The position numbers and the translations under genes are program-made. DNA of 11,362 bases, taken from NCBI GenBank assembly GCA_013812565.1, contig JACCTF010000959.1, positions 1 through 11,362 on the forward strand, given 5' to 3'. The stretch comes from Pyrinomonadaceae bacterium. GTDB taxonomy: Bacteria > Acidobacteriota > Blastocatellia > Pyrinomonadales > Pyrinomonadaceae. Under the pieces are notes generated by a model, which saw only the letters and a list, made by a program, of their open reading frames with translations, was not told the origin of the DNA and did not search any database. Within the stretch, counting starts at the first letter, position 1. The number at the start of each line of letters is the position of its first letter. Below are positions 1,579 to 11,258 of this stretch, piece by piece.

Positions 1579-1593
1579 GAATTGTCTTGATTG

Positions 1594-3414
1594 ATGCGTA
1601 CAACAAACATTTGCTTCGCGCCACACCTCTCTGTCTTTGCACTCACGCTGCTGATAATTGTCAGCCTGGTTGGTCGCTCAACTGCGCAGCAGCATTACTT
1701 ACCCGATCATCATCCGCACAGACATTACCTGCCCACTGTCAGCGAGCAATCATCGCTAAACCCAAAAACTAATTCACCACCAACGCGCCCGCGACTCGTG
1801 CTGCTGATCGTTGTGGACCAGTTTCGCTACGACTATCTCGAACGCTTCGGCGATCTCTTTGTCGCTAAGGGACTGGGCAGGTTAATGCGCGAAGGGGCAT
1901 GGTGGACCAGCGCGGCTTACGACCACATGCCCACATCTACCGCGCCCGGCCACGCTACTTTAATGACCGGAACGTGGCCTGCGGAGAACGGCATCATCGG
2001 CAACGAATGGTTTGATCGCGAAACGGGGAGCAGCGTTACGAGCGTCTCAGATACGGCGGCCAAGTTGCTCGGCGGCGAGGAGGGCGCGAAAGCGGCAAGC
2101 CCGCGGCGCATGCTCGCTTCAACCCTCGGTGATGAGTTACGCCTTGCCACACAAGGACGCTCCAAAGTGATCGGCATTTCCGTAAAAGATCGTGGAGCAA
2201 TTTTAACTGCAGGTCGTGGGGCGACGGCTGCTTACTGGTTCAGCGCCAAAACCGGACAAGTGGTCTCCAGCGACTACTACTTCAATCAACTGCCGCAGTG
2301 GGTGACGAGCTTTAACAACACGCGTCCGGCGGATAAATACTTTGGCGCACGGTGGGAACGGCTGTTGCCCGAAGCTGAATACACGAGGCGTGCCGGGCCG
2401 GATGCTCCCTCGTGGGAGAAGACAGGGACGAGCAAGGATACTAACACTTTTCCGCACATCATCAGCGGCGGAGCAAGCGCTCCCGGGCCGGCTTTCTACG
2501 ACGAGCTACCCAGCTCACCCTTTGCCAACGATCTGCTCATCTCCTTCGCCGAGCAGGCAATCGCGGGCGAACTACTCGGACAGGACGATGATGCGGACGT
2601 ACTCAGCTTAAGTCTTTCAGCGAATGATTACGTCGGACATCGTTTTGGCCCGTACAGCCAAGAGGCGATGGACATCACCCTGCGCACGGATCGCCAGATC
2701 GCTGCGCTGCTCGATTATGTGGACGCACGCGTCGGATTGCGGAACACCGTAGTCGCTTTCACGGCTGATCACGGAGTCGCGCCAATCCCGGAGCATGCCG
2801 CGGCAGTCAACCTGCCGGGTGGACGTGTTAAAACATCTGCGATGCTCGAAGCGGTTCGCGCTCGGATCAACGCGCGTTACGCGGGCGGAAGCGGTGAGTT
2901 GCAAAACGGCGCTCCCTCCGCTCGTGATTACGTTCAGTCGTTTTCAAACGGCCAGATCTATTTCAACACTGCCGCGCTCATGCGTGATCGCATCAACCGC
3001 GAAGAGATTGAACGCATCGCCGGCGAAGCCGCGATGACCACTCTCGGCATCGCGCGCTACTTCACGCGCACGCAGCTTGAGGCAGGCCGCGTGAGCACCA
3101 CCGACCCGGTGGCGCGTCGCGTGCTTCACGGTTTTCATCCGCAGCGAAGCGGCGATGTGGTGATTGTTTGCGAGCCATTCAAGTTCTTCGGTGAATCGTC
3201 AGCGACCGGCACCACGCACGGTTCCCCGTATTCGTATGACACGCATGTGCCGCTAATTATCATGGGCAGTGAGGTGAAAGCCGGACGCTACCGAGAGGCA
3301 GCGAGTCCTGCCGACATCGCGCCGACGCTTGCCGCACTTTTGCGCATGCAGCCGCCAAGTAACGCGACCGGGCGGGTTCTCCTTGAAAGCCTCAATGTTA
3401 AAAGTGACAAGTGA
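1594..3414 (+). CDS. Secreted PafA-like alkaline phosphatase (606 aa)
   Basis: This is an alkaline-phosphatase-superfamily enzyme, probably a zinc phosphomonoesterase releasing phosphate in the periplasm or outside. Residues 1-31 are a signal peptide, followed by a His-rich linker in which HYLP occurs twice. The metal and catalytic set is visible: D75 in IVVDQ; T116, the likely nucleophile, in PTSTAPGHATLMTG; N137 in GIIGNEW; D345 and H349 in NDYVGH; D392 and H393 in ADHG; and H542/H551 in the HGSPYSYDTH motif, one of which should be the last metal ligand. K198 and R200 in SVKDRGAIL match the Lys/Arg pair that in PafA favours monoesters over diesters (family knowledge). ATG at 1594 is preferred, although an adjoining in-frame TTG at 1591 is possible. 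The stop codon and last residues lie inside a heptamer repeat. A nucleotide pyrophosphatase/phosphodiesterase-like role is the alternative, but the K/R pair argues against it. Confidence 0.9.
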   Translation: MRTTNICFAPHLSVFALTLLIIVSLVGRSTAQQHYLPDHHPHRHYLPTVSEQSSLNPKTNSPPTRPRLVLLIVVDQFRYDYLERFGDLFVAKGLGRLMREGAWWTSAAYDHMPTSTAPGHATLMTGTWPAENGIIGNEWFDRETGSSVTSVSDTAAKLLGGEEGAKAASPRRMLASTLGDELRLATQGRSKVIGISVKDRGAILTAGRGATAAYWFSAKTGQVVSSDYYFNQLPQWVTSFNNTRPADKYFGARWERLLPEAEYTRRAGPDAPSWEKTGTSKDTNTFPHIISGGASAPGPAFYDELPSSPFANDLLISFAEQAIAGELLGQDDDADVLSLSLSANDYVGHRFGPYSQEAMDITLRTDRQIAALLDYVDARVGLRNTVVAFTADHGVAPIPEHAAAVNLPGGRVKTSAMLEAVRARINARYAGGSGELQNGAPSARDYVQSFSNGQIYFNTAALMRDRINREEIERIAGEAAMTTLGIARYFTRTQLEAGRVSTTDPVARRVLHGFHPQRSGDVVIVCEPFKFFGESSATGTTHGSPYSYDTHVPLIIMGSEVKAGRYREAASPADIAPTLAALLRMQPPSNATGRVLLESLNVKSDK

Positions 3415-3545
3415 CGGGTGACAAGATGGAAGCAGAGTTTGTGTGATGACGATGGTTGTCCGTCTTCGGCAGCATCTCACACTCATGTTCAACAGCCACG
3501 CGAGCGTGCTCATGCCTGTCACTCGTCTCTTGTCATTCGTCACTT
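3402..3545. repeat. Heptamer-ended inverted-repeat element 1 (AAGTGAC type)
   Basis: The left arm is a tandem heptamer run: AAGTGAC (3402-3408), AAGTGAC (3409-3415), GGGTGAC (3416-3422), then AAGATGG. The right arm has four units on the opposite strand: GTCACTC (3518-3524), GTCTCTT (3525-3531), GTCATTC (3532-3538) and GTCACTT (3539-3545), which reverse-complement to GAGTGAC, AAGAGAC, GAATGAC and AAGTGAC. The arms enclose about 95 bases with no coding frame. The element fills most of the space between the phosphatase and TPR genes and overlaps the phosphatase stop codon. It carries no transposase, so it would be a non-autonomous or REP-like element. Confidence 0.8.
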
Positions 3546-3588
3546 TTGATCTATTCAATCGTTCGCAAGAATCTTAGCTGAACTAAAG

Positions 3589-5889
3589 ATGAAACAAACA
3601 AAATCAATCGCCTCGTTATGCTCGCTCTTTCTTCTCTGGTGCGCGCTGGCTGATACAGCTTCCGCGCAGCGTCGCCAAAGGCAGAAGCAAGCTAAACCGG
3701 CAGATGAAACATCTACGGCGGAGGTGTCCCCGAACGCAAGCGATAAAACTCAGACAGTGGAACTAGATGCGGTGCTCGCGCTGCCACCGGCAGAACGCAT
3801 CGAACGGTTGAAAGCATATGTGAAGACGCATCAGCAAGCTCCCGCCGCAGAGAGGACGCGCGCGATGGAATTGCTTGTCAGCGCGCACGCCGCTCTGGGT
3901 GATGACAAGTTAAAGGCGGATGACATCAAGGGGGGGATTGCTGAGTTTCGGCGAGCCATCGCGGCCGCTCCGGCAGATATGGCCGACAAGCTTTTCTTCG
4001 AAGTCGTGGCACAGTTGCCAGCTAACCTGTTTCTCCGTGGTCAAAGCGCGGCGGCAGTTGCCGCGGCTCGCTCTGTTGAGGCCAAAGCGAAAGATGATCC
4101 GAAGCGGCTGTTGGCTCTTGCATCCTTCTACCTCATGGTGGAGCAGGAACAGGAGGCAACGCGCATCGCTGAACGTGCGGTTCGACTTGCGCCTGAGATG
4201 GGAGCGGCGCATCAAGCTCTCGGGGCAGCGCACCGCATCGGTTTCCGGCTTGATGAAGCGGCCCAAGAGTTCGCTCGCGCCCTTGAACTTGAACCGCAAT
4301 CTGCCACCGCGCGCCGCAGTCTCGCCGACCTTCGCCGCGCCACCGGAAAAGCGGAAGAAGCGCTGAAGCTCTACCGCGAGCAATTGACGACGGATGCGAA
4401 AGACAAAGCGGCGCGCGCTGGTCTTGTGCTCTCGCTGTTTGATCTGGGCAAGCGAGAAGAAGCGGAGCGCGAGATGCAATCCACGACCGAGGCAGAAGCG
4501 CAAAACCTGCCGTTATTGGTTGGCGCAGCTTACTGGTACGCGGCGCAGGGTGAGGGCGCACGTGCATTAGAATTGGCCCAGCGCGCCGTCTCTCTGGAAC
4601 CGCGCTATACCTGGGCACAGATCGCTTTTGCACGCGCGCTTATTGCCCAGCAGCGCCCGCTTGACGCCGAACGGGCGCTTCGATTTGCGCTTCAGTATGG
4701 ACGCTTCCCCACGCTTGATTACGAACTTGCCACTGTGCTAGCAGCAGTCGGCCTTTATGAAGAAGCCGCAACGGAATTAGCGCGGTCCTTTATTCTAAAG
4801 AATGACCAGCTTGAAACTCGCCTCGCCGGGCGTGTTGCAGCCACGGCGACAACCTTTACTGAACTGCTCGCTCCCGAACGCCGAGCCAGCATTTTTCAAC
4901 CCGGCGCGGCTGATACCGATGGCAACGCCGCGATGCTAAAAGGTCTGCTCGCCTTTCACTCCGCGACGAGTGAAGCAAACACTAAAGGCGCGGCGGCAAC
5001 AACCGCCCCTGTGGCCGCCAAAGAATTTACTGCCGGCTCCGATGCAATGCGTGCTTTTCGTCATCTGTATGCGGCGAGCCGTCTGCTTCAGAGCGGCGCA
5101 TCAGCGCAAACGGTGCTTGATGAGGTTGAAGCGGCAGCGAGCGGAGTTGAAGCGGGGCTTGATGCACCAAGCGCGACGGTTGCCGTCTTGGCAGATGAAC
5201 TGCGTACACTACGGATGCGCGCCATCGCCGCTGGGGCAACACCAGCGCTGCCTGATGTTCCGCGTCGCACGCTCTCAAACATTGTGCGTGGGCGGCTTGA
5301 AGACATCGCCGGATATGCTTTGTTCAAAGACGGCAAGGCCGAAGAAGCCGTGACGCGTCTGCGCCGTGGAGCAAGCGTGCTGCCGGAGAATAGCTTGTGG
5401 TGGCGCACTACGCAGTGGCACCTCGGAGCGGCGCTTGATGCGAGCGGCAATCCGGCGGAGGCGCTCACGGCATACTTCAAGGGCTACGACCGGAGGTCGC
5501 CTGACCCGGCGCAGCGCGCGATCATCGAAGTGGTGTATCGCAAAGTCAACGGCTCGCTCGACGGCTTCGCCGAACGCATCGGTGCCGTACCCACCTCATC
5601 AACCAACCGCGCATCTGCTGACAGCCCAACGCAAAAAAGCGCAGCACCGCCCACCGTGAGCGATACCACTAATTCAACGGAAAGCGATCCAAACGCTGCT
5701 TCGCCTGCCACGTCCCCGCCATCGCTTAGTACAACCGCCACAGTGACGATCGGTGAAACGACCCCGACGCCGGGGAACGAAGCTTCGGCAACGGAGCAGC
5801 CGACAGAAGAGGCCGAGAAGAACAGTTCCACGAAGCGCAAGCGAAAAGCTGTGCGTCCGGGTGCAGACAAGCTGAGGCGCAATCATTAA
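3589..5889 (+). CDS. Secreted tetratricopeptide-repeat protein (766 aa)
   Basis: This is a TPR scaffold, probably binding other proteins in the periplasm or at the envelope. Its partner is unknown. Residues 1-26 form a signal peptide ending ASA, followed by a charged Arg/Lys/Gln linker. TPR-like helix pairs occur at about 110-140, 175-205, 206-240, 241-275, 310-345 and 346-400, with a second block at about 570-645. Typical signatures are EEAL or DEAA followed by a basic/alanine helix and a closing LEP or LAP. Between the blocks lies an alanine-rich region (about 430-560). From about residue 670 the chain is disordered, rich in Ser, Thr, Pro and Glu, and ends in a very basic tail (KRKRK near 749). 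No enzyme domain is visible. The ATG at 3589 starts the signal peptide directly; no Shine-Dalgarno site is evident. Its stop is 6 nt from that of the convergent thioredoxin gene. Confidence 0.88.
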   Translation: MKQTKSIASLCSLFLLWCALADTASAQRRQRQKQAKPADETSTAEVSPNASDKTQTVELDAVLALPPAERIERLKAYVKTHQQAPAAERTRAMELLVSAHAALGDDKLKADDIKGGIAEFRRAIAAAPADMADKLFFEVVAQLPANLFLRGQSAAAVAAARSVEAKAKDDPKRLLALASFYLMVEQEQEATRIAERAVRLAPEMGAAHQALGAAHRIGFRLDEAAQEFARALELEPQSATARRSLADLRRATGKAEEALKLYREQLTTDAKDKAARAGLVLSLFDLGKREEAEREMQSTTEAEAQNLPLLVGAAYWYAAQGEGARALELAQRAVSLEPRYTWAQIAFARALIAQQRPLDAERALRFALQYGRFPTLDYELATVLAAVGLYEEAATELARSFILKNDQLETRLAGRVAATATTFTELLAPERRASIFQPGAADTDGNAAMLKGLLAFHSATSEANTKGAAATTAPVAAKEFTAGSDAMRAFRHLYAASRLLQSGASAQTVLDEVEAAASGVEAGLDAPSATVAVLADELRTLRMRAIAAGATPALPDVPRRTLSNIVRGRLEDIAGYALFKDGKAEEAVTRLRRGASVLPENSLWWRTTQWHLGAALDASGNPAEALTAYFKGYDRRSPDPAQRAIIEVVYRKVNGSLDGFAERIGAVPTSSTNRASADSPTQKSAAPPTVSDTTNSTESDPNAASPATSPPSLSTTATVTIGETTPTPGNEASATEQPTEEAEKNSSTKRKRKAVRPGADKLRRNH

Positions 5890-5895
5890 CGCGGC

Positions 5896-6357
5896 TCAAG
5901 AGTGTGCGGCGAGCCTTGCGACGATAGCTTGTTTGGGCTGCGCGCCGATCATGCGGTCAACAAGCTCCCCGTTCTTGAAGATTAACAGCGCCGGGATGCT
6001 CTGGATGCCGAGTTGTGCTGCGGTTCGTGGATTTTCATCGACGTTCAATTTCGCAGTGATGTAGCGGCCAGCAGACTCGGCGGCCAATTGATCAATAATT
6101 GGACCAATCATGCGACATGGCCCACACCATTCCGCCCAACAATCGAGCAACACGGGACGAGCGCCCGCTTGCATAACATCGCGCGTGAAAGAAGCATCAG
6201 TAATTACGAGCGGCGTGGATACACCGCTGCCGTCTGCGCCGCTCCACGCATCCGTCTTCAGCATTGCGCCGCATCGTCCGCACACGGGTTGCGAGACAGC
6301 CGCCGCACTTTCATCCACGCGGTTCTTGGCGCTGCACTTGGGGCAAGTCACAATCAT
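5896..6357 (-). CDS. trxC: Thioredoxin TrxC type with N-terminal zinc ribbon (153 aa)
   Basis: This is a cytoplasmic thiol-disulfide reductase that reduces protein disulfides and is itself reduced by thioredoxin reductase (family role). Residues 1-34 form a zinc ribbon with C5/C8 (TCPKC) and C26/C29 (VCGRCG), the arrangement that distinguishes thioredoxin 2 from TrxA. The thioredoxin fold follows. It has the buried Asp at D72, the active site WCGPC with C78 and C81, and the cis-proline P122 in QSIPALLIF. Length is close to E. coli TrxC (about 139 aa), with a slightly longer linker between ribbon and fold. No signal peptide is present. ATG at 6355-6357 has GGAAGG (6369-6374 on this strand) about 11 nt upstream. 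A TATAAA hexamer at 6418-6423 (minus) could be a -10 box, but no matching -35 is clear. In E. coli trxC belongs to the OxyR oxidative-stress response; no such site is evident here. Confidence 0.93.
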   Translation of the reverse strand: MIVTCPKCSAKNRVDESAAAVSQPVCGRCGAMLKTDAWSGADGSGVSTPLVITDASFTRDVMQAGARPVLLDCWAEWCGPCRMIGPIIDQLAAESAGRYITAKLNVDENPRTAAQLGIQSIPALLIFKNGELVDRMIGAQPKQAIVARLAAHS

Positions 6358-6471
6358 CCTTTGAATTTCCTTCCGTAGAGGCGAACCAGTGCGTCTTAAT
6401 TCTTCATCACACTGTTCTTTATAGAGGATGAAAACTTACAACGATTGAGGCGAGGCGTGCAAACATTAAAG

Positions 6472-6623
6472 CAGTGATAAGTGATAAGTGACGAGTTACA
6501 AGATGAAGGCGAGATGTGGGATCGGTGTTGACCAGGAGTCCGGAGAGCGCGGCCAGCTTACCTTCTCCGGCAACGCTTTCGGGATTGCATTTCAAGTATT
6601 GCTCGTCTCGCCACTTGTCACTG
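6472..6623. repeat. Heptamer-ended inverted-repeat element 2 (AAGTGAC type)
   Basis: The left arm runs CAGTGAT (6472-6478), AAGTGAT (6479-6485), AAGTGAC (6486-6492), GAGTTAC (6493-6499) and AAGATGA (6500-6506), matching the left arm of element 1 unit by unit, including the closing AAGATG. The right arm is shorter, with GCCACTT (6610-6616) and GTCACTG (6617-6623). Just inside, GGCGAGA (6508-6514) pairs with TCTCGCC (6606-6612). A nested stem CCGGAGA (6540-6546) with TCTCCGG (6564-6570) lies within. The element sits in the promoter region shared by trxC and the M61 peptidase gene. Confidence 0.75.
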
Positions 6624-6631
6624 TTTACGCG

Positions 6632-6664
6632 GGCACCCCAACGTGGCAGCCCCGTTGGGGTGCC
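6632..6664. repeat. Perfect 12-bp palindrome with 9-nt loop
   Basis: GGCACCCCAACG (6632-6643) is followed after 9 nt by its exact reverse complement CGTTGGGGTGCC (6653-6664). The stem is GC-rich and would be very stable in RNA or as a DNA cruciform. It begins 8 nt after heptamer element 2 and lies 113 nt before the likely peptidase start. No T-run follows on either strand, so an intrinsic terminator is unlikely. Confidence 0.8.
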
Positions 6665-6777
6665 ATTGTCATTTCTGAGAAGCTACTGTCGAGCAAGAGT
6701 TTCATAGTAAGATGTCAATCTTAGAAGATATTCCTCACCCGAACCCCATTCCAAACAAAGGAAAATCAACGAACACG

Positions 6778-8640
6778 ATGCGTCATTTGCGATTGCTCCC
6801 TCTGGCGTTGGCGTTTGTTTCCGTTCTGTGTGCTATGCCTTCGACTACTCTCGCGCAGAATCGGCGCGCTGCCGAACCGCCCGCCATCGCTTTCACTGTC
6901 TCAATGCCGAAGCCTCATACGCATCTTCTGGAAGTCGAGATGCGTGTTCAAAGCGGCGGCAATGCGGCGGTGACACCGCAGGTTGATTTAGTGATGCCCG
7001 TGTGGACTCCCGGCTCGTACCTTGTCCGTGAATATGCGCGTCATGTGCAGGACTTTGCCGCGACTGATACAGAGCGGCGACATCTTCAGTGGAGCAAAAT
7101 AAACAAGAACACCTGGCGGATTGAGACAAACGGCGCGCGCGATTTCGTGGCGACCTACCGCGTTTATGCGAACGAATTGACGGTGCGCACCAATGAGTTG
7201 AACGACCGTCATGCCTTCTGGAATAACGCAGCGCTCTTGATGTACGTCGATGGATACTTGAGCGCTCCGGCGACGCTACGTGTTGTGCCCTTTGGTGATT
7301 GGAAGATCGCTACCGGGCTTCCCGCCGTTTCCGGTCAAGCGAACACTTTTCAGGCTGAGAACTTCGATGTGCTTTATGACTCTCCGGTTGAGGTGGGCCG
7401 GTTTCGCACTCTTGAGTTCAGTGTGCGCGACGTGCCGCACCGCATAGTCATTAACGGTGAAGGCAACTACGATCCTGAAAGCATGCGCGGCGACGTACAG
7501 AAAATCGTTGAAGCAGCCGTCTCCCTGATGAATGATATTCCTTATCGTGACTACACTTTTATTTTGCATCTACGACCCACGGGCGGCGGCGGTCTTGAGC
7601 ACCGCAACTCAACGGCGCTCGTCTTCGGGCGTTTCAGATTTCGTCCCGAGACAAGCTATCGCAATTTTCTCTCGCTCACGGCACACGAGTTCTTCCACTC
7701 ATGGAATGTAAAGTCGATTCGCCCCGATGCGCTTGGACCATTCGACTACACAGCTGAGAACTACACGCGCATGCTGTGGATTGCCGAAGGACTGACAAGC
7801 TATTACGAAGATATTATCTTGCGTCGCGCCGGGCTTATCTCCGATAAGGAATACCTGGAGGGTTTAGCTAAAGCGATACAAAAATTACAGAACACGCCGG
7901 GACGCCTTCAGATGAGCCTGGAGGAAGCAAGCTTCGATGCCTGGATCAAGTATTACCGCCCGGATGAAAACTCGCCAAACACGCAAATCTCTTACTACGA
8001 CAAAGGAGCCATCGTCGGCGCATTGCTCGACTTGGAGATTCGCCGCTCAACTAACGGAGCGCGCTCACTTGATGATGTTATGCGTCGCCTCTACAGGGAG
8101 TTTGCGTTGAAGAACCGCAACTACACACCCGAGGATTTTCAGCGCACCGCTGAAGCCGTAGCCGGGGCGAGCCTTGAAGATTTCTTCAGACGCTATGTCC
8201 GAGGGCGCGATGAGCTTGACTACAAACGGGCATTTGAAACCGCCGGGTTGCGGTTGGATACAACCGGCGACGAGAAATCCTCGCAAGCTAAAGCTTACCT
8301 TGGCGCAACGCTTGTTCAGGAGGGCGACCGCTTGCTTGTTAAAAATGTTCTTGCCGGTGCGCCCGCTTATGATCAGGGATTAAATGCGGGAGACCAAATC
8401 CTTGCCATAGACGGTGTGCGCGTGACACGCGAATCGTTCGATGCGCGCCTTGAAGAGAAGCGTCCCGGTGATGAAGCGCGCCTCTCTATCTTCCGCCTTG
8501 ATGAACTGCGCACGCTCGCTGTTAAGCTCGGCGAGCAGACGGAAGGCGACTACCGCATTGTGCCCGTGAAACAACCGAGCGCCGCCCAAGCGCAAATCTA
8601 TCAAGGCTGGCTGAGCAGTTCCCTTCCAAAGTCAGACTAA
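6778..8640 (+). CDS. Secreted M61-family metallopeptidase with PDZ domain (620 aa)
   Basis: This is a zinc peptidase of the M61 glycyl-aminopeptidase family, which cleaves peptides with a preference for N-terminal Gly or Ala in the characterised members. It is exported: residues 1-26 form a signal peptide (ending TTLAQ). An N-terminal beta domain follows (about 35-200; WTPGSYLVREY is typical of the family). The catalytic part contains the zinc motif H303-E-F-F-H307 in AHEFFHSWN and the third ligand E337 in WIAEGLTSYYED. A C-terminal PDZ domain (about 505-590) has LGATLV, the GLNAGDQILAIDG turn and a later strand. This is a complete M61 layout. The frame stays open upstream to an ATG at 6712, but the signal peptide begins at 6778. 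The 22 extra residues would bury the signal and look repeat-derived, so 6778 is preferred. The enoyl-CoA hydratase gene follows after 67 nt and may be co-transcribed. Confidence 0.9.
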   Translation: MRHLRLLPLALAFVSVLCAMPSTTLAQNRRAAEPPAIAFTVSMPKPHTHLLEVEMRVQSGGNAAVTPQVDLVMPVWTPGSYLVREYARHVQDFAATDTERRHLQWSKINKNTWRIETNGARDFVATYRVYANELTVRTNELNDRHAFWNNAALLMYVDGYLSAPATLRVVPFGDWKIATGLPAVSGQANTFQAENFDVLYDSPVEVGRFRTLEFSVRDVPHRIVINGEGNYDPESMRGDVQKIVEAAVSLMNDIPYRDYTFILHLRPTGGGGLEHRNSTALVFGRFRFRPETSYRNFLSLTAHEFFHSWNVKSIRPDALGPFDYTAENYTRMLWIAEGLTSYYEDIILRRAGLISDKEYLEGLAKAIQKLQNTPGRLQMSLEEASFDAWIKYYRPDENSPNTQISYYDKGAIVGALLDLEIRRSTNGARSLDDVMRRLYREFALKNRNYTPEDFQRTAEAVAGASLEDFFRRYVRGRDELDYKRAFETAGLRLDTTGDEKSSQAKAYLGATLVQEGDRLLVKNVLAGAPAYDQGLNAGDQILAIDGVRVTRESFDARLEEKRPGDEARLSIFRLDELRTLAVKLGEQTEGDYRIVPVKQPSAAQAQIYQGWLSSSLPKSD

Positions 8641-8707
8641 ACTTCCGTAGCAAAGCCCACGCACCAAAAGACCCTGAACATATATTCACTCTTCTTAGGC
8701 ACAAACG

Positions 8708-9490
8708 ATGAACGGTAAATACCAAACTATTCGCTTCACAATTGAGAATCGTGTGGCACGTCTGACCTTCGCGCGTCCGCCGCTCAACGTCTTCAACATT
8801 CAGATGATGCGTGAGATCAACAACGCCTTGAACGATTGCAGCAACCAGCGCGATACGGTCGCCGTTGTCTTCGACGCCTCGCCGGAGTCGCGCGCCTTCA
8901 GCGCCGGAGTTGCGGTTGAAGAGTATGCGGAAGAGACGAGCTATCAAATGCTCGAATCCTTTCACGAGATCTTTCACACCCTGCGGCACATGGCAAAGCC
9001 GGTGGTCGCCGTGGTGGACGGCGCGGCGCTCGGCGGTGGATGTGAACTCGTTGCCGGTTGCGACATTGTGATTGCCGGCGAACGAGCGCGCTTCGGTCAG
9101 CCGGAGATCAAGCTGGGTGTCTTCCCGCCCGTCGCGGCGCTACTGTTGCCGCGCATCATCGGTGAGCGGCGCGCGCGCGAACTAATACTAACGGGCGAGA
9201 TAATCGACGCGCCCGAAGCGTTACGCCTCGGATTGGTCAACTACGTTGTGCCGTCCACGCAGTTAGAACAGAAGACTCAGGAGGTGCTCGCGCGGCTGCG
9301 TGAGCTTTCCGCCCCCGCGCTTGAAGCGACCCGGCGTGCCCTTGATGCCGGGGCATACGGAGCTTCGTTTACGGAGGCGCTCGCTGCGATTGAAAACCTC
9401 TATCTAAACGACCTGATGAAGACAGAAGACGCTCATGAAGGCATCAAGGCATTTATGGAGAAACGCAAACCCGTGTGGCGCAATCGGTAA
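8708..9490 (+). CDS. Enoyl-CoA hydratase/isomerase (crotonase) family protein (260 aa)
   Basis: This is a full-length crotonase-fold enzyme acting on an acyl-CoA thioester in the cytoplasm. Oxyanion-hole motifs are present: FSAG (64-67) and the GGG of LGGGCE (108-113). Both acid residues used by rat mitochondrial enoyl-CoA hydratase are kept, E113 (GGGCE) and E133 (QPE), spaced 20 apart as in the rat enzyme, so water addition is plausible. The C-terminus EGIKAFMEKRKP also matches the family. The sequences FSAGVAVEE and PEIKLGVFPPVAALLLPR recall proteins annotated as cyclohexa-1,5-diene-carbonyl-CoA hydratase, but none of the other genes of benzoyl-CoA breakdown are here, so the substrate stays open. 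Start ATG 8708 has a weak AGG (8697-8699) 8 nt upstream. It follows the M61 gene by 67 nt on the same strand without an obvious terminator. Confidence 0.92.
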   Translation: MNGKYQTIRFTIENRVARLTFARPPLNVFNIQMMREINNALNDCSNQRDTVAVVFDASPESRAFSAGVAVEEYAEETSYQMLESFHEIFHTLRHMAKPVVAVVDGAALGGGCELVAGCDIVIAGERARFGQPEIKLGVFPPVAALLLPRIIGERRARELILTGEIIDAPEALRLGLVNYVVPSTQLEQKTQEVLARLRELSAPALEATRRALDAGAYGASFTEALAAIENLYLNDLMKTEDAHEGIKAFMEKRKPVWRNR

Positions 9491-9496
9491 TAAGCC

Positions 9497-9631
9497 CTCA
9501 GCCGTCAGCTATTAGCTGGTAGCAGTTACCATTACCCTTCAGCGTACCTTGCGGGCGGCGAGAGAGCGCCATACGGATGAAATGTAATACTGATCATGTC
9601 CTAAGCTGATGGCTGACGGCTGATTGCTGAA
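9497..9631. repeat. Heptamer-ended inverted-repeat element 3 (GGCTGAT type)
   Basis: The right arm is four heptamers: AGCTGAT (9604-9610), GGCTGAC (9611-9617), GGCTGAT (9618-9624) and TGCTGAA (9625-9631). The left arm has the complementary set: CTCAGCC (9497-9503), GTCAGCT (9504-9510), ATTAGCT (9511-9517) and GGTAGCA (9518-9524). The stretch 9498-9517 pairs with 9604-9623 at 18 of 20 positions. The element begins 6 nt after the enoyl-CoA hydratase stop. Its unit family and polarity differ from elements 1 and 2: the TGAY ends point outward here and inward there. Confidence 0.8.
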
Positions 9632-9700
9632 CGCTTACCAAAGTTCTAGCGCGCTTCGTTGACACATGAATGCGCCCCTTTCTATCATCAATGTTTTGCC

Positions 9701-11074
9701 ATGAAGAAGATTTTGAAGCAGTGTACGCCCGGTTTGATGTCTCGCCTGCAAATGAAGTGTAATCCTCATTCATTCGTGATAACGCGTAGTGCTCGCGCCC
9801 TAGCAGCGCGGGGCGTTATGCCGCTTTTGTTCGCCGGAACGCTCATCGCGCTCGCGCTTTTCGCAGCCGGATGCCGCGAAATGGAAGGAACAAAGGGCGT
9901 GCGCCCGCGAACGATGGGCGATGTGCCCGCCGAACGTCTAGCCTATCGCTTCGAGGCAGACATCGAAGCGCCGGAGGCCGTGAGCCGCAGCGAAGAGGCA
10001 ACTGAGAAACTCCCGTCGATTCAGATGGACTTCGAAGTGCGCCGAAAAGATGATGCGCTGCTGCGTACGATTCCTTCGCCCGACGGCCACCGCGCGCTCG
10101 CGCTTTATGCGACGGCGGAAACCCCGGAAGGCGAGTTTCTGATTGATCTATACTCAGCCGAAGGATTGTTCCTGCGCAACATACTGCCGCCAAACCTTTC
10201 GTGTGCTTTCGCCCCCGCGGTTGCATGGTCGCCCGATGGGCAATCGATTGCTTTCATTGGCCGCAAAAGCCTCGTGTTTCAATCAGACCAGCAACCCGCC
10301 GTGCCCTTCGATGATGTGCCGACTATCGATGCGGAGCCAAACGACATACCGATCATGCCTTCTCCGCCGTCAACAGTTGCGCCGCTCATTTCTCCGATTG
10401 CCGTCTTCAGCACAGAGCAGATCTATGTTTGCGACCGCGACGGTTTCAACCTTCGCCCCCTGACGACGCGTGACGGCCTTGTTTACTTCACCCTGGCGTG
10501 GGCCCCCGATGGTCGCGCGTTGGCAGCGCTGGCGTGCAAAGAGGCGGAGTGGGAAGCGCGCTCTGCCGAGAACCTGCCGCCCTCGGGTCGCCCGCGCATC
10601 ATCCAAACGGACGGCCGCGAACGCTTGCTTGATGATCAACTGGCTGAAGCGCCCCCTGTCTGGTCGCCTGACTCGTCGAAAGTCGCCACTGCCTCTGCGA
10701 CAAACGTTACCATCTATGACGCCGCGCCGGACGCGCTGACGGGCGCGCGTGTTCCGCTCGGCGATTCTTTGCTCAACGCTTCCGCACGCTTCGATGAGAC
10801 GCACAAACCGCAGTCGGCCAACAATCAAACGGCAACGACGAACGGCGCGGGCGCTGCCGCCGAACCACAAACAAGCAGCCTGCCGCTCTCCTTCAACCCG
10901 GTGGTACGACTCGAATGGACAGCACCTGAAATCTTACTGGTCCAGACCGGCTTCGTGCGCATCTTTGCCGGAGAGCCGGTCAGCCGCTACCCGCGCTGGC
11001 ACGCGCTTCACCTCAGTCCGCAGGCCGTGCTCCTCAGCGAAGCGATCCTTCGTGCGAGTGTGAAGCGTGTGTGA
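9701..11074 (+). CDS. Lipoprotein with TolB/WD40-like beta-propeller motifs (457 aa)
   Basis: This is an exported lipoprotein of unknown function. A hydrophobic segment ends in the lipobox LFAAGC with the lipidated Cys at residue 58. The mature part carries PD40/WD40-like propeller strands at about 173-190 (AVAWSPDGQSIAFIG), 265-280 (LAWAPDGRALAALA) and 320-335 (VWSPDSSKVATASA), with a less clear one near 120-140 (SPDGHRALALYA). Such TolB-like propellers usually bind proteins. Pro/Ser-rich (about 205-235) and Asn/Thr/Ala-rich (about 365-390) inserts interrupt the blades. The start is uncertain. The frame is open from GTG 9659; ATG 9701 (MKKIL) is chosen, but it leaves an unusually long region before the hydrophobic segment. 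ATG 9752, which puts the Cys at position 41, is a good alternative. No Shine-Dalgarno site decides between them. Element 3 separates it from the upstream gene, so it probably has its own promoter. Confidence 0.75.
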   Translation: MKKILKQCTPGLMSRLQMKCNPHSFVITRSARALAARGVMPLLFAGTLIALALFAAGCREMEGTKGVRPRTMGDVPAERLAYRFEADIEAPEAVSRSEEATEKLPSIQMDFEVRRKDDALLRTIPSPDGHRALALYATAETPEGEFLIDLYSAEGLFLRNILPPNLSCAFAPAVAWSPDGQSIAFIGRKSLVFQSDQQPAVPFDDVPTIDAEPNDIPIMPSPPSTVAPLISPIAVFSTEQIYVCDRDGFNLRPLTTRDGLVYFTLAWAPDGRALAALACKEAEWEARSAENLPPSGRPRIIQTDGRERLLDDQLAEAPPVWSPDSSKVATASATNVTIYDAAPDALTGARVPLGDSLLNASARFDETHKPQSANNQTATTNGAGAAAEPQTSSLPLSFNPVVRLEWTAPEILLVQTGFVRIFAGEPVSRYPRWHALHLSPQAVLLSEAILRASVKRV

Positions 11075-11137
11075 AACGTCCACGTCCAGAGCCAGTGAGT
11101 TCTCGGTTGAAGTGGCATGTGAAATAGGCACGCGAAG

Positions 11138-11206
11138 TAGCACGAGACAAGAGCGGTCTGTATTGGCTGTGCTGGCTGCCATCCACAGGCTCGGGGCCTC
11201 GTGCTA
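11138..11206. repeat. 9-bp inverted repeat, 51-nt spacer
   Basis: TAGCACGAG (11138-11146) and its exact reverse complement CTCGTGCTA (11198-11206) flank a 51-nt spacer downstream of the lipoprotein gene. The overall size is smaller than that of the heptamer elements and no heptamer run is clear. A related word, AATAGGCACG, lies just upstream. It could be the remnant of a palindromic repeat, or chance. Confidence 0.4.
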
Positions 11207-11258
11207 TTGTGAGAACTGCATAGCCCTGCCGCCGTCCAGGGTCATTCAGTTTTCGTCG

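Follow-up and report, generated by a model that had tools for sequence, protein, structure and literature searches.

Degenerate 7-bp units that form hairpins or inverted pairs have been described in several bacteria, and what is said here and below of these published systems draws on parts of the cited papers. The closest case is the P6b stem-loop of the tRNA-Leu(UAA) intron of Nostoc and Calothrix, in which degenerate heptamers base-pair into a hairpin (PMC3488679) and belong to either Class I (TDNGATT) or Class II (NNTGAGT) (PMC4476775). In Geobacter metallireducens, multicopy tandem hepta- and octanucleotides were predicted to be global regulator binding sites (classes 1 to 3; PMC2700814). 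Cyanobacterial short tandemly repeated repetitive (STRR) sequences are heptamers repeated in tandem between genes, one of which was noted to form a hairpin (PMC2670836), and the TAACTGA repeats of Beggiatoaceae and Cyanobacteria comprise 169 direct sets and 1 inverted set in BOGUAY (PMC4679880). No origin is generally accepted for the heptamer repeats that have been noted between the genes of several bacterial phyla. In this work, we analyze three elements, E1, E2, and E3, each built of inverted heptamer arrays and located between genes of an 11,362-bp contig (C654, here called the window) of a Pyrinomonadaceae bacterium, the parent metagenome-assembled genome (MAG) of which comprises 5.34 Mb in 1103 contigs. 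The reading that we favor, with a probability of roughly 0.55, is that E1 to E3 are nonautonomous mobile palindromes of heptamer-array type, similar to miniature inverted-repeat transposable elements (MITEs), the families of which are exchanged at persistent intergenic slots.

Like the P6b stem-loop, the acidobacterial elements have hairpin arms that are arrays of degenerate heptamers, and at P6b two classes are interchangeable, with replacement of the whole hairpin having been inferred (PMC4476775). Unlike P6b, which is one slot within a cyanobacterial group I intron, the acidobacteria have many intergenic slots and families, nested elements, and dispersed copies. Two families of a relative, genome G015 (TTNGATT and TGAGTGA), fit the Nostoc class motifs by eye, whereas the units of E1 to E3 do not fit them exactly. 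The parallel to cyanobacterial heptamer repeats drawn in the original prediction, which was made from the sequence of the window alone, was apt and closer than that prediction knew, as a two-ended heptamer hairpin has been described in the Nostoc trnL intron (PMC4476775, PMC3488679). The Geobacter sites share the tandem repeats that are mostly paired on opposite strands at a variable distance but differ in their units (MTYCTGA, GTTGCTYN, and TCTCCGTS) and in being read as regulator sites (PMC2700814), and STRR sequences share the 7-bp tandem units between genes (PMC2670836). TAACTGA sets are direct (PMC4679880), whereas inverted pairs are the rule among the acidobacterial elements. Finally, repetitive extragenic palindromic (REP) sequences and REPINs are likewise short, multicopy intergenic palindromes of many families, often in oppositely oriented pairs (PMC3733652), but the acidobacterial arms are heptamer arrays for which no association with RAYT transposases was found. 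We conclude that the kind of element is already known; the genome-wide, multifamily, slot-exchanging form was not found in the open-access literature searched, acidobacteria included, which is not proof of its absence there.

The left arm of E1 (positions 3402 to 3422) consists of three units (AAGTGAC, AAGTGAC, and GGGTGAC) and the right arm (3518 to 3545) of four degenerate units (AAGTGAC, GAATGAC, AAGAGAC, and GAGTGAC, read from the outside in), with a 95-bp interior between them. The left arm overlaps the end of the upstream open reading frame (ORF), and the array provides the TGA stop codon of that ORF. E2 has four units in its left arm (6472 to 6499; CAGTGAT, AAGTGAT, AAGTGAC, and GAGTTAC) and a more decayed right arm at about 6608 to 6628, which reads GTAAACAGTGACAAGTGGCGA from the outside in. 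In E3, the left arm (9497 to 9517) is CTCAGCC, GTCAGCT, and ATTAGCT and the right arm (9604 to 9631) is AGCTGAT, GGCTGAC, GGCTGAT, and TGCTGAA. The proposal that all units fit NNSTGAY held approximately, with GAATGAC, AAGAGAC, GAGTTAC, and others deviating. A joint score that added the inverted match to the period-7 match of 21-nt arms was 38, 37, and 39 for E1, E2, and E3, respectively, whereas the best of 2000 dinucleotide shuffles per gap reached 31, 30, and 30, such that no shuffle attained the observed value in any gap. The arms are also foldable into hairpins, as had been proposed, with RNA folding z scores of -3.8 (E1), -3.3 (E2), and -5.4 (E3). We conclude that the three elements are real, lie where they had been placed, and are not due to chance.

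Elements of the same architecture were sought with a detector that ignores unit sequence and requires two 21-nt arms within 260 bp, each matching itself at an offset of 7 and the two being mutually reverse complementary. The detector found 248 period-7 elements in 1,774,607 bp from 45 genomes, the parent MAG included, and none in one Markov copy of that DNA; offsets of 5, 6, 8, 9, 10, and 11 gave 2, 16, 31, 7, 8, and 0 elements, respectively, at a slightly stricter inversion threshold. These densities are not a fair census, as the contigs of G015 and of another relative, G062, were picked for richness in GTGAY units, and several other stretches were picked for RAYT genes. In 286,973 bp made up of the window and 24 acidobacterial loci retrieved for their protein similarity, there were 20 elements at period 7, 15 at its harmonic 14, and 0 to 6 at other periods, while a single Markov copy yielded one element each at periods 7 and 4. 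G015 alone (394,756 bp) yielded 91 elements at period 7, 75 at 14, 22 at 8, and 0 to 7 at the others. By contrast, 646,709 bp from 56 more distant loci, which belong to different acidobacterial classes or to different phyla, contained no period-7 element and 0 to 2 at other periods. A strict short-loop GTGAY palindrome occurred in 5 of 199 genomes sampled across the phylum, the parent MAG included, and 13 matches (overlapping registers counted) were in G102, a genome of another class, such that this type is not confined to the class of the window.

The three elements had been proposed to form one family. As an architectural class that is period 7, inverted, and intergenic, they lie far above chance in the MAG and its relatives, but one family is too narrow, as there are many: E1 to E3 share a plan and not a sequence. 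E1 and E2 belong to a GTGAY family that is common in the MAG, in which the GTGAY dimer pattern RAGTGAYRAGTGAY occurred at 142 places (68 and 74 on the two strands) compared with 0 and 0 for the reversed pattern, and copies therefore exceed chance. E3 belongs to a GCTGAY family that is rare in the MAG, with 4 places (2 and 2, compared with 0 and 1 for the control) on three contigs, namely, E3 itself in two registers, a short-loop inverted copy on contig C981, and a partnerless site on C990. In the window and 13 contigs picked for GTGAY matches, all 15 paired GTGAY arrays ran plus and then minus, pointing inward, and thus the inverted layout holds for other copies; arm-to-arm distances were either about 20 to 35 bp or about 95 to 140 bp. 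Four further GTGAY arrays and the left arm of E2 had no partner at the threshold of that survey, and no GTGAY array was present on the five RAYT contigs and two GCTGAY contigs examined alongside. C981 (locus L058) carries two more inverted period-7 elements, at 1400 to 1481 and 165 to 224, with GGATGAA-type and TTCAAAG-type units, and the MAG therefore holds several unit families. As a separate observation, the reversed control pattern YAGTGARYAGTGAR is itself abundant in some relatives (e.g., G016, G001, and G012), where the AGTGA core is retained with a different 2-nt linker.

Nine unit families were distinguished by eye in G015 alone: AGTTTTN, TNGAGTC, AGTGATR, GATTTTN, AAAAGGY, TAAATGG, GGGATGA, GTTTCAR, and GCGGATT. 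Units vary at one or two positions and are otherwise mostly fixed, and variants are usually mirrored in the opposite arm. Some elements are also concentric, GTGAY enclosing AGTTTTN or TAAATGG in its loop and TNGAGTC enclosing GATTTTN; a second concentric inverted array with a different unit was found in 7 of the 93 G015 elements by script and in about a dozen by eye. Such diversity bears on the possibility that the elements are global regulator binding sites, as was proposed for G. metallireducens. The equal layout of paired, opposite-strand tandem repeats in that organism (PMC2700814) speaks for it, but nine unrelated units in one genome and the swapping of units beside a given gene ill suit one sequence-specific protein, and we consider this origin very improbable. 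Many unrelated families in one genome thus have a common period, layout, and placement at gene boundaries, and close species allow them to be compared gap by gap, such that two questions become answerable: why seven, and how heptamer hairpins replace each other at a fixed site.

Placement was assessed against gene calls from a simple hexamer-scored ORF finder, in which gene starts are approximate. In G015, 84 of 93 element midpoints lay outside predicted genes although intergenic DNA made up 18.9% of the sequence, and the 93 elements were divided among tandem (62), convergent (12), and divergent (8) gaps, ORF interiors (9), and edges (2). In G062, with an intergenic share of 14.3%, 58 of 68 elements were between predicted genes, 7 were inside predicted ORFs, and 3 were at edges. 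Elements were thus enriched between genes in both genomes. In tandem gaps, the elements were nearly flush with both genes, with a median distance from the stop codon to the element of 6 nt in G015 (55 elements) and 4 nt in G062 (46 elements) and from the element to the next start of 11 and 8 nt, respectively.

Hairpins persist at the same gaps while their unit families change. Three relatives were compared: G062 and G061, with an identity of 94.8% across one 13-kb alignment and of 92 to 96% in long matching segments of two further alignments, and G060, which is 79 to 90% identical to G062. When hairpins were called regardless of period in two aligned blocks, 12 of 14 G062 hairpins overlapped a hairpin in G061 and 12 overlapped one in G060, compared with means of 1.2 and 1.4 and maxima of 6 and 7 in 2000 random rotations; two of the 14 were GC-rich nonheptameric palindromes, one of which was among the 12 matched in G061. 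A gap-based control, which we judge fairer, scored 31 orthologous gaps in three blocks for any palindrome above a score threshold. The numbers of gaps with a hairpin in both genomes, only the one, only the other, and neither were 15, 2, 2, and 12 for G062 and G061 (P = 5e-5), 13, 4, 4, and 10 for G062 and G060 (P = 0.012), and 14, 3, 3, and 11 for G061 and G060 (P = 0.001); the third block misses a G060 element upstream of enoyl-CoA hydratase that is visible in the junction comparison below.

The unit family differed between G062 and G060 in 7 of 12 heptamer slots and, in the closest pair, G062 and G061, in 4 of 10, a count from which two slots were set aside, a composite for which the comparison matched an inner to an outer layer and a slot whose G061 hairpin scored below the threshold. 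Among the six slots scored as the same in the closest pair, one differs by a single base of the unit (TAAATGG versus TAAATCG), and one slot holds three families in the three genomes (TAAATGG, GTGAC, and ACGATGA). The junction between a short-chain dehydrogenase gene and an enoyl-CoA hydratase gene carries GTGAC units at loci L062 and L063, GCAGTAA-type units at L061, TGTTAGC-type units at L068, and a lone GATTTTN-type arm at L069, that is, four unit types in five genomes, one as a lone arm; the gap is 2 bp at L072. The dehydrogenase domain was confirmed at 5 of 5 junctions scanned, with L063 outside the scan. Conserved intergenic hairpins thus need not be conserved regulatory RNAs, as the position can persist while the sequence is exchanged. 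Separately, the gaps at L063 (7935 to 8051) and L254 (2716 to 2787), in G062 and G061, contain an inverted repeat of ACGAAG/CACAAAG words with a period of about 8 by eye; in G060, the corresponding gap is 29 bp long or contains another hairpin.

Copy numbers and repeated whole elements bear on how the families arise. GTGAY dimers occurred 791 times in G061 (391 and 400 on the two strands) and 691 times in G062 (337 and 354) but 6 times (4 and 2) in their close relative G060, with reversed-pattern controls of 4 and 1, 5 and 2, and 16 and 17, respectively, which indicates a recent burst or collapse of the GTGAY family. Among the matches listed, dozens of places in G060 and G061 had about 80 to 93% identity to an 80-bp AGTTTCR element, an observation that argues for copying of whole elements, and a GTGAC[TAAATCG] composite matched, beyond its own slot, about 30 places in G061 and 2 in G060 among the matches listed, such that composites seem to spread as units. 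The elements have MITE traits: inverted repeats at both ends, multiple copies, and, owing to their short length, no coding capacity.

An alternative is that the elements are generated in place, without mobility, by 7-nt replication slippage and hairpin-templated correction at any intergenic palindrome. Such an origin would agree with the strong preference for period 7 across many unrelated sequences and with the gain or loss of one 7-bp unit in a single arm between close genomes, which is as unit slippage, an element of the original prediction, would give. Moreover, in 10 of 10 families, the similarity of an arm to its own partner slightly exceeded its average similarity to the rest of the family, although detection favors matched arms. 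Hundreds of same-unit copies in one genome with nearly none in a close relative, and the repetition of whole elements together with their cores and of composites, tell against generation in place, and we regard it as distinctly improbable.

Another alternative is that any hairpin serves as a selected intercistronic RNA structure, acting in mRNA stability, translational coupling, or termination, while families drift or swap. The per-gap conservation of hairpins but not of their sequence, the flush position between the stop and start codons of tandem genes, and the better folding of E1 to E3 than of shuffles would all be expected, and both heptamer classes of the Nostoc trnL P6b stem-loop are said to have the same function (PMC4476775). 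In addition, 66 of 417 element sides bore a T-tract, compared with 8 of 408 control positions lying 400 bp away. However, a stem under selection as RNA should retain G-U pairs, and arm mismatches of elements between tandem genes, read in the transcript sense, comprised 67 G-U and 68 A-C, such that pairing looks to be driven at the DNA level. Likewise, T-tracts were found at 17 of 131 ends on the sense side and 17 of 131 on the antisense side, indicating flanks that are A/T rich on both sides regardless of transcription; a role as intrinsic terminators was rejected on these counts. Elements also occupy divergent gaps (8 of 93 in G015, and E2 itself). The suggested roles in mRNA 3'-end protection or insulation are thus not supported as what keeps the arms paired, and selection for RNA hairpins seems to us unlikely as the explanation. 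On balance, we favor a cause at the DNA level over an RNA function, which is nonetheless possible at some slots.

A further proposal was that the elements are REPIN-like and mobilized by RAYT (Y1_Tnp) transposases. REPs are likewise palindromic pairs, and Y1_Tnp had 6 matches on five contigs of the parent MAG and was present in 49 of 60 genomes, the parent MAG included. Nonetheless, numbers of GTGAY dimers, the one family counted here, did not correlate with numbers of Y1_Tnp matches in 37 genomes (Spearman rho = -0.23, P = 0.18), and 34 RAYT loci (98,831 bp) contained no heptamer element compared with the 5 to 6 expected from less rich genomes (56 in 1.00 Mb, or 5.6 per 100 kb). In addition, G010, G034, and G030 had no Y1_Tnp match at completeness of 91%, 90%, and 71% and contained 138, 241, and 410 GTGAY dimers, respectively, counted regardless of inversion. 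The spread of these elements by RAYT proteins is accordingly hardly credible.

As MITE-like mobile palindromes, E1 to E3 would be members of a large class, the heptamer hairpins, in which arms of about three to five tandem degenerate 7-bp units surround a short or composite core and many families coexist in one genome; these hairpins would disperse as DNA by transposition-like copying. A gap once occupied tends to stay occupied through speciation while the occupying family is swapped: a newcomer may enter at or inside the resident hairpin, in its loop or at its base, and the old arms would then be lost, keeping the slot and replacing the family. The enzyme would presumably be provided in trans and act on hairpins or single-stranded DNA, slippage and hairpin-templated copying would account for the mirrored arms and the period of 7, and any benefit to the host, as an intercistronic RNA hairpin or as stops in all frames, would be secondary. 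A bolder version, which we put forward tentatively and hold to be possible though doubtful, is that the intergenic hairpin slots of Pyrinomonadaceae are conserved landing sites at which the members of a guild of heptamer palindromes replace one another without RAYT, through insertion that is directed by the resident hairpin and occurs within or around it. If true, it would mean a form of mobile DNA with hairpins, not sequence, as its target, and it would also explain the hairpin swaps at Nostoc trnL P6b.

Several results weigh against reading the elements as mobile palindromes that are exchanged at persistent slots. No transposase partner was found, Y1_Tnp being the sole family searched for, and no target site duplication was seen by eye in comparisons of occupied gaps with short gaps, among which there was no clean empty site at high identity. 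No terminal motif common to all families was found; flanks are A rich in several, and a strong AAGARCAG motif is confined to the AGTTTTN family. Besides the closeness of partner arms noted above, another family member matched an arm as well or better in 103 of 118 elements. No element was detected in 20 of the 45 genomes, from samples of 7 to 40 kb. Occupancy differs at some gaps (2 and 2 of 31 between G061 and G062, and 4 and 4 of 31 between G062 and G060), where hairpins are gained or lost, such that slots are not absolute. At L267 (4059 to 4153), the aligned flanks are about 170, 46, and 22 bp apart in G062, G061, and G060, respectively, which argues against strict slots, and conserved occupancy could simply mark gaps that tolerate DNA. 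Finally, no intermediate series was seen for loop replacement, and remnants outside new arms are anecdotal.

Candidates for an agent or a permissive background were also considered. A 1.7-kb insertion at a G061 slot was rejected as an autonomous partner, as the three ORFs scanned comprised one Crp-like regulator and two without a Pfam match, with no transposase domain. Genomes that bear the palindromes may lack the hairpin nuclease SbcD: canonical SbcD (TIGR00619 above the cutoff) was found in 6 of 60 genomes, with the parent MAG included in the 60, and only in G001 among 36 same-family relatives, and the parent MAG has only a weak partial match. Within the family, SbcD does not separate element-rich from element-poor genomes, and SbcCD loss as a permissive background was set aside and is a lead at most. 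A second lead concerns stop codons. As 7 is not a multiple of 3, every reading frame of an array whose heptamer contains a stop codon meets a stop. Of 20 units listed by hand, 17 have a stop codon on one strand, compared with a fraction of 0.496 for random heptamers, and stops in all frames were found in 37% of 121 upstream arms, compared with 5%. The idea is only a lead, as the unit list was hand-picked and any periodic array that bears a stop gives such a result.

The genes of the window are listed in Table 1. The nearest matches of the M61 peptidase protein are in MAGs labeled Acidobacteria or Pyrinomonadaceae bacterium, with 63 to 73% amino acid identity (best segment) at the best 11 loci. 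The window had no Rfam match at the gathering score, and no tRNA was found in it.

Table 1. Positions of the elements and ORFs in the 11,362-bp window
Feature	Position	Strand	Remarks
Type I phosphodiesterase ORF	1591-3414	+	Pfam
E1, inverted GTGAC heptamer arrays	3402-3545		Between type I phosphodiesterase ORF and TPR ORF, both +
TGA stop of ORF 1591-3414, within E1 left array	3412-3414	+	ORF ends LLESLNVKSDK (stop)
TPR ORF	3589-5889	+	Pfam
Thioredoxin ORF	5896-6357	-	Pfam
E2, inverted GTGAY arrays	6472-6624		Between divergent thioredoxin (-) and M61 peptidase (+) ORFs
Near-perfect 33-bp palindrome, nonheptameric (GGCACCCCAACG...CGTTGGGGTGCC)	6632-6664		Adjoins E2
M61 peptidase ORF with PDZ	6712-8640	+	Pfam
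Enoyl-CoA hydratase ORF	8708-9490	+	Pfam
E3, inverted GCTGAY arrays	9493-9631		Between enoyl-CoA hydratase and PD40-repeat ORFs, both +
PD40-repeat protein ORF	9659-11074	+	Pfam

The nonheptameric palindrome that adjoins E2 may be a hairpin of its own that shares the gap with E2. Two further repeats were noted in the window. A 14-mer, CTTCGTGCCGCACG, is present in two head-to-tail copies at 760 to 787, in the gap upstream of the first minus-strand ORF. Close to the contig end, an inverted pair, AGTAGCACGAG at 11136 to 11146 and CTCGTGCTATT at 11199 to 11209, may form a hairpin, as judged by eye.

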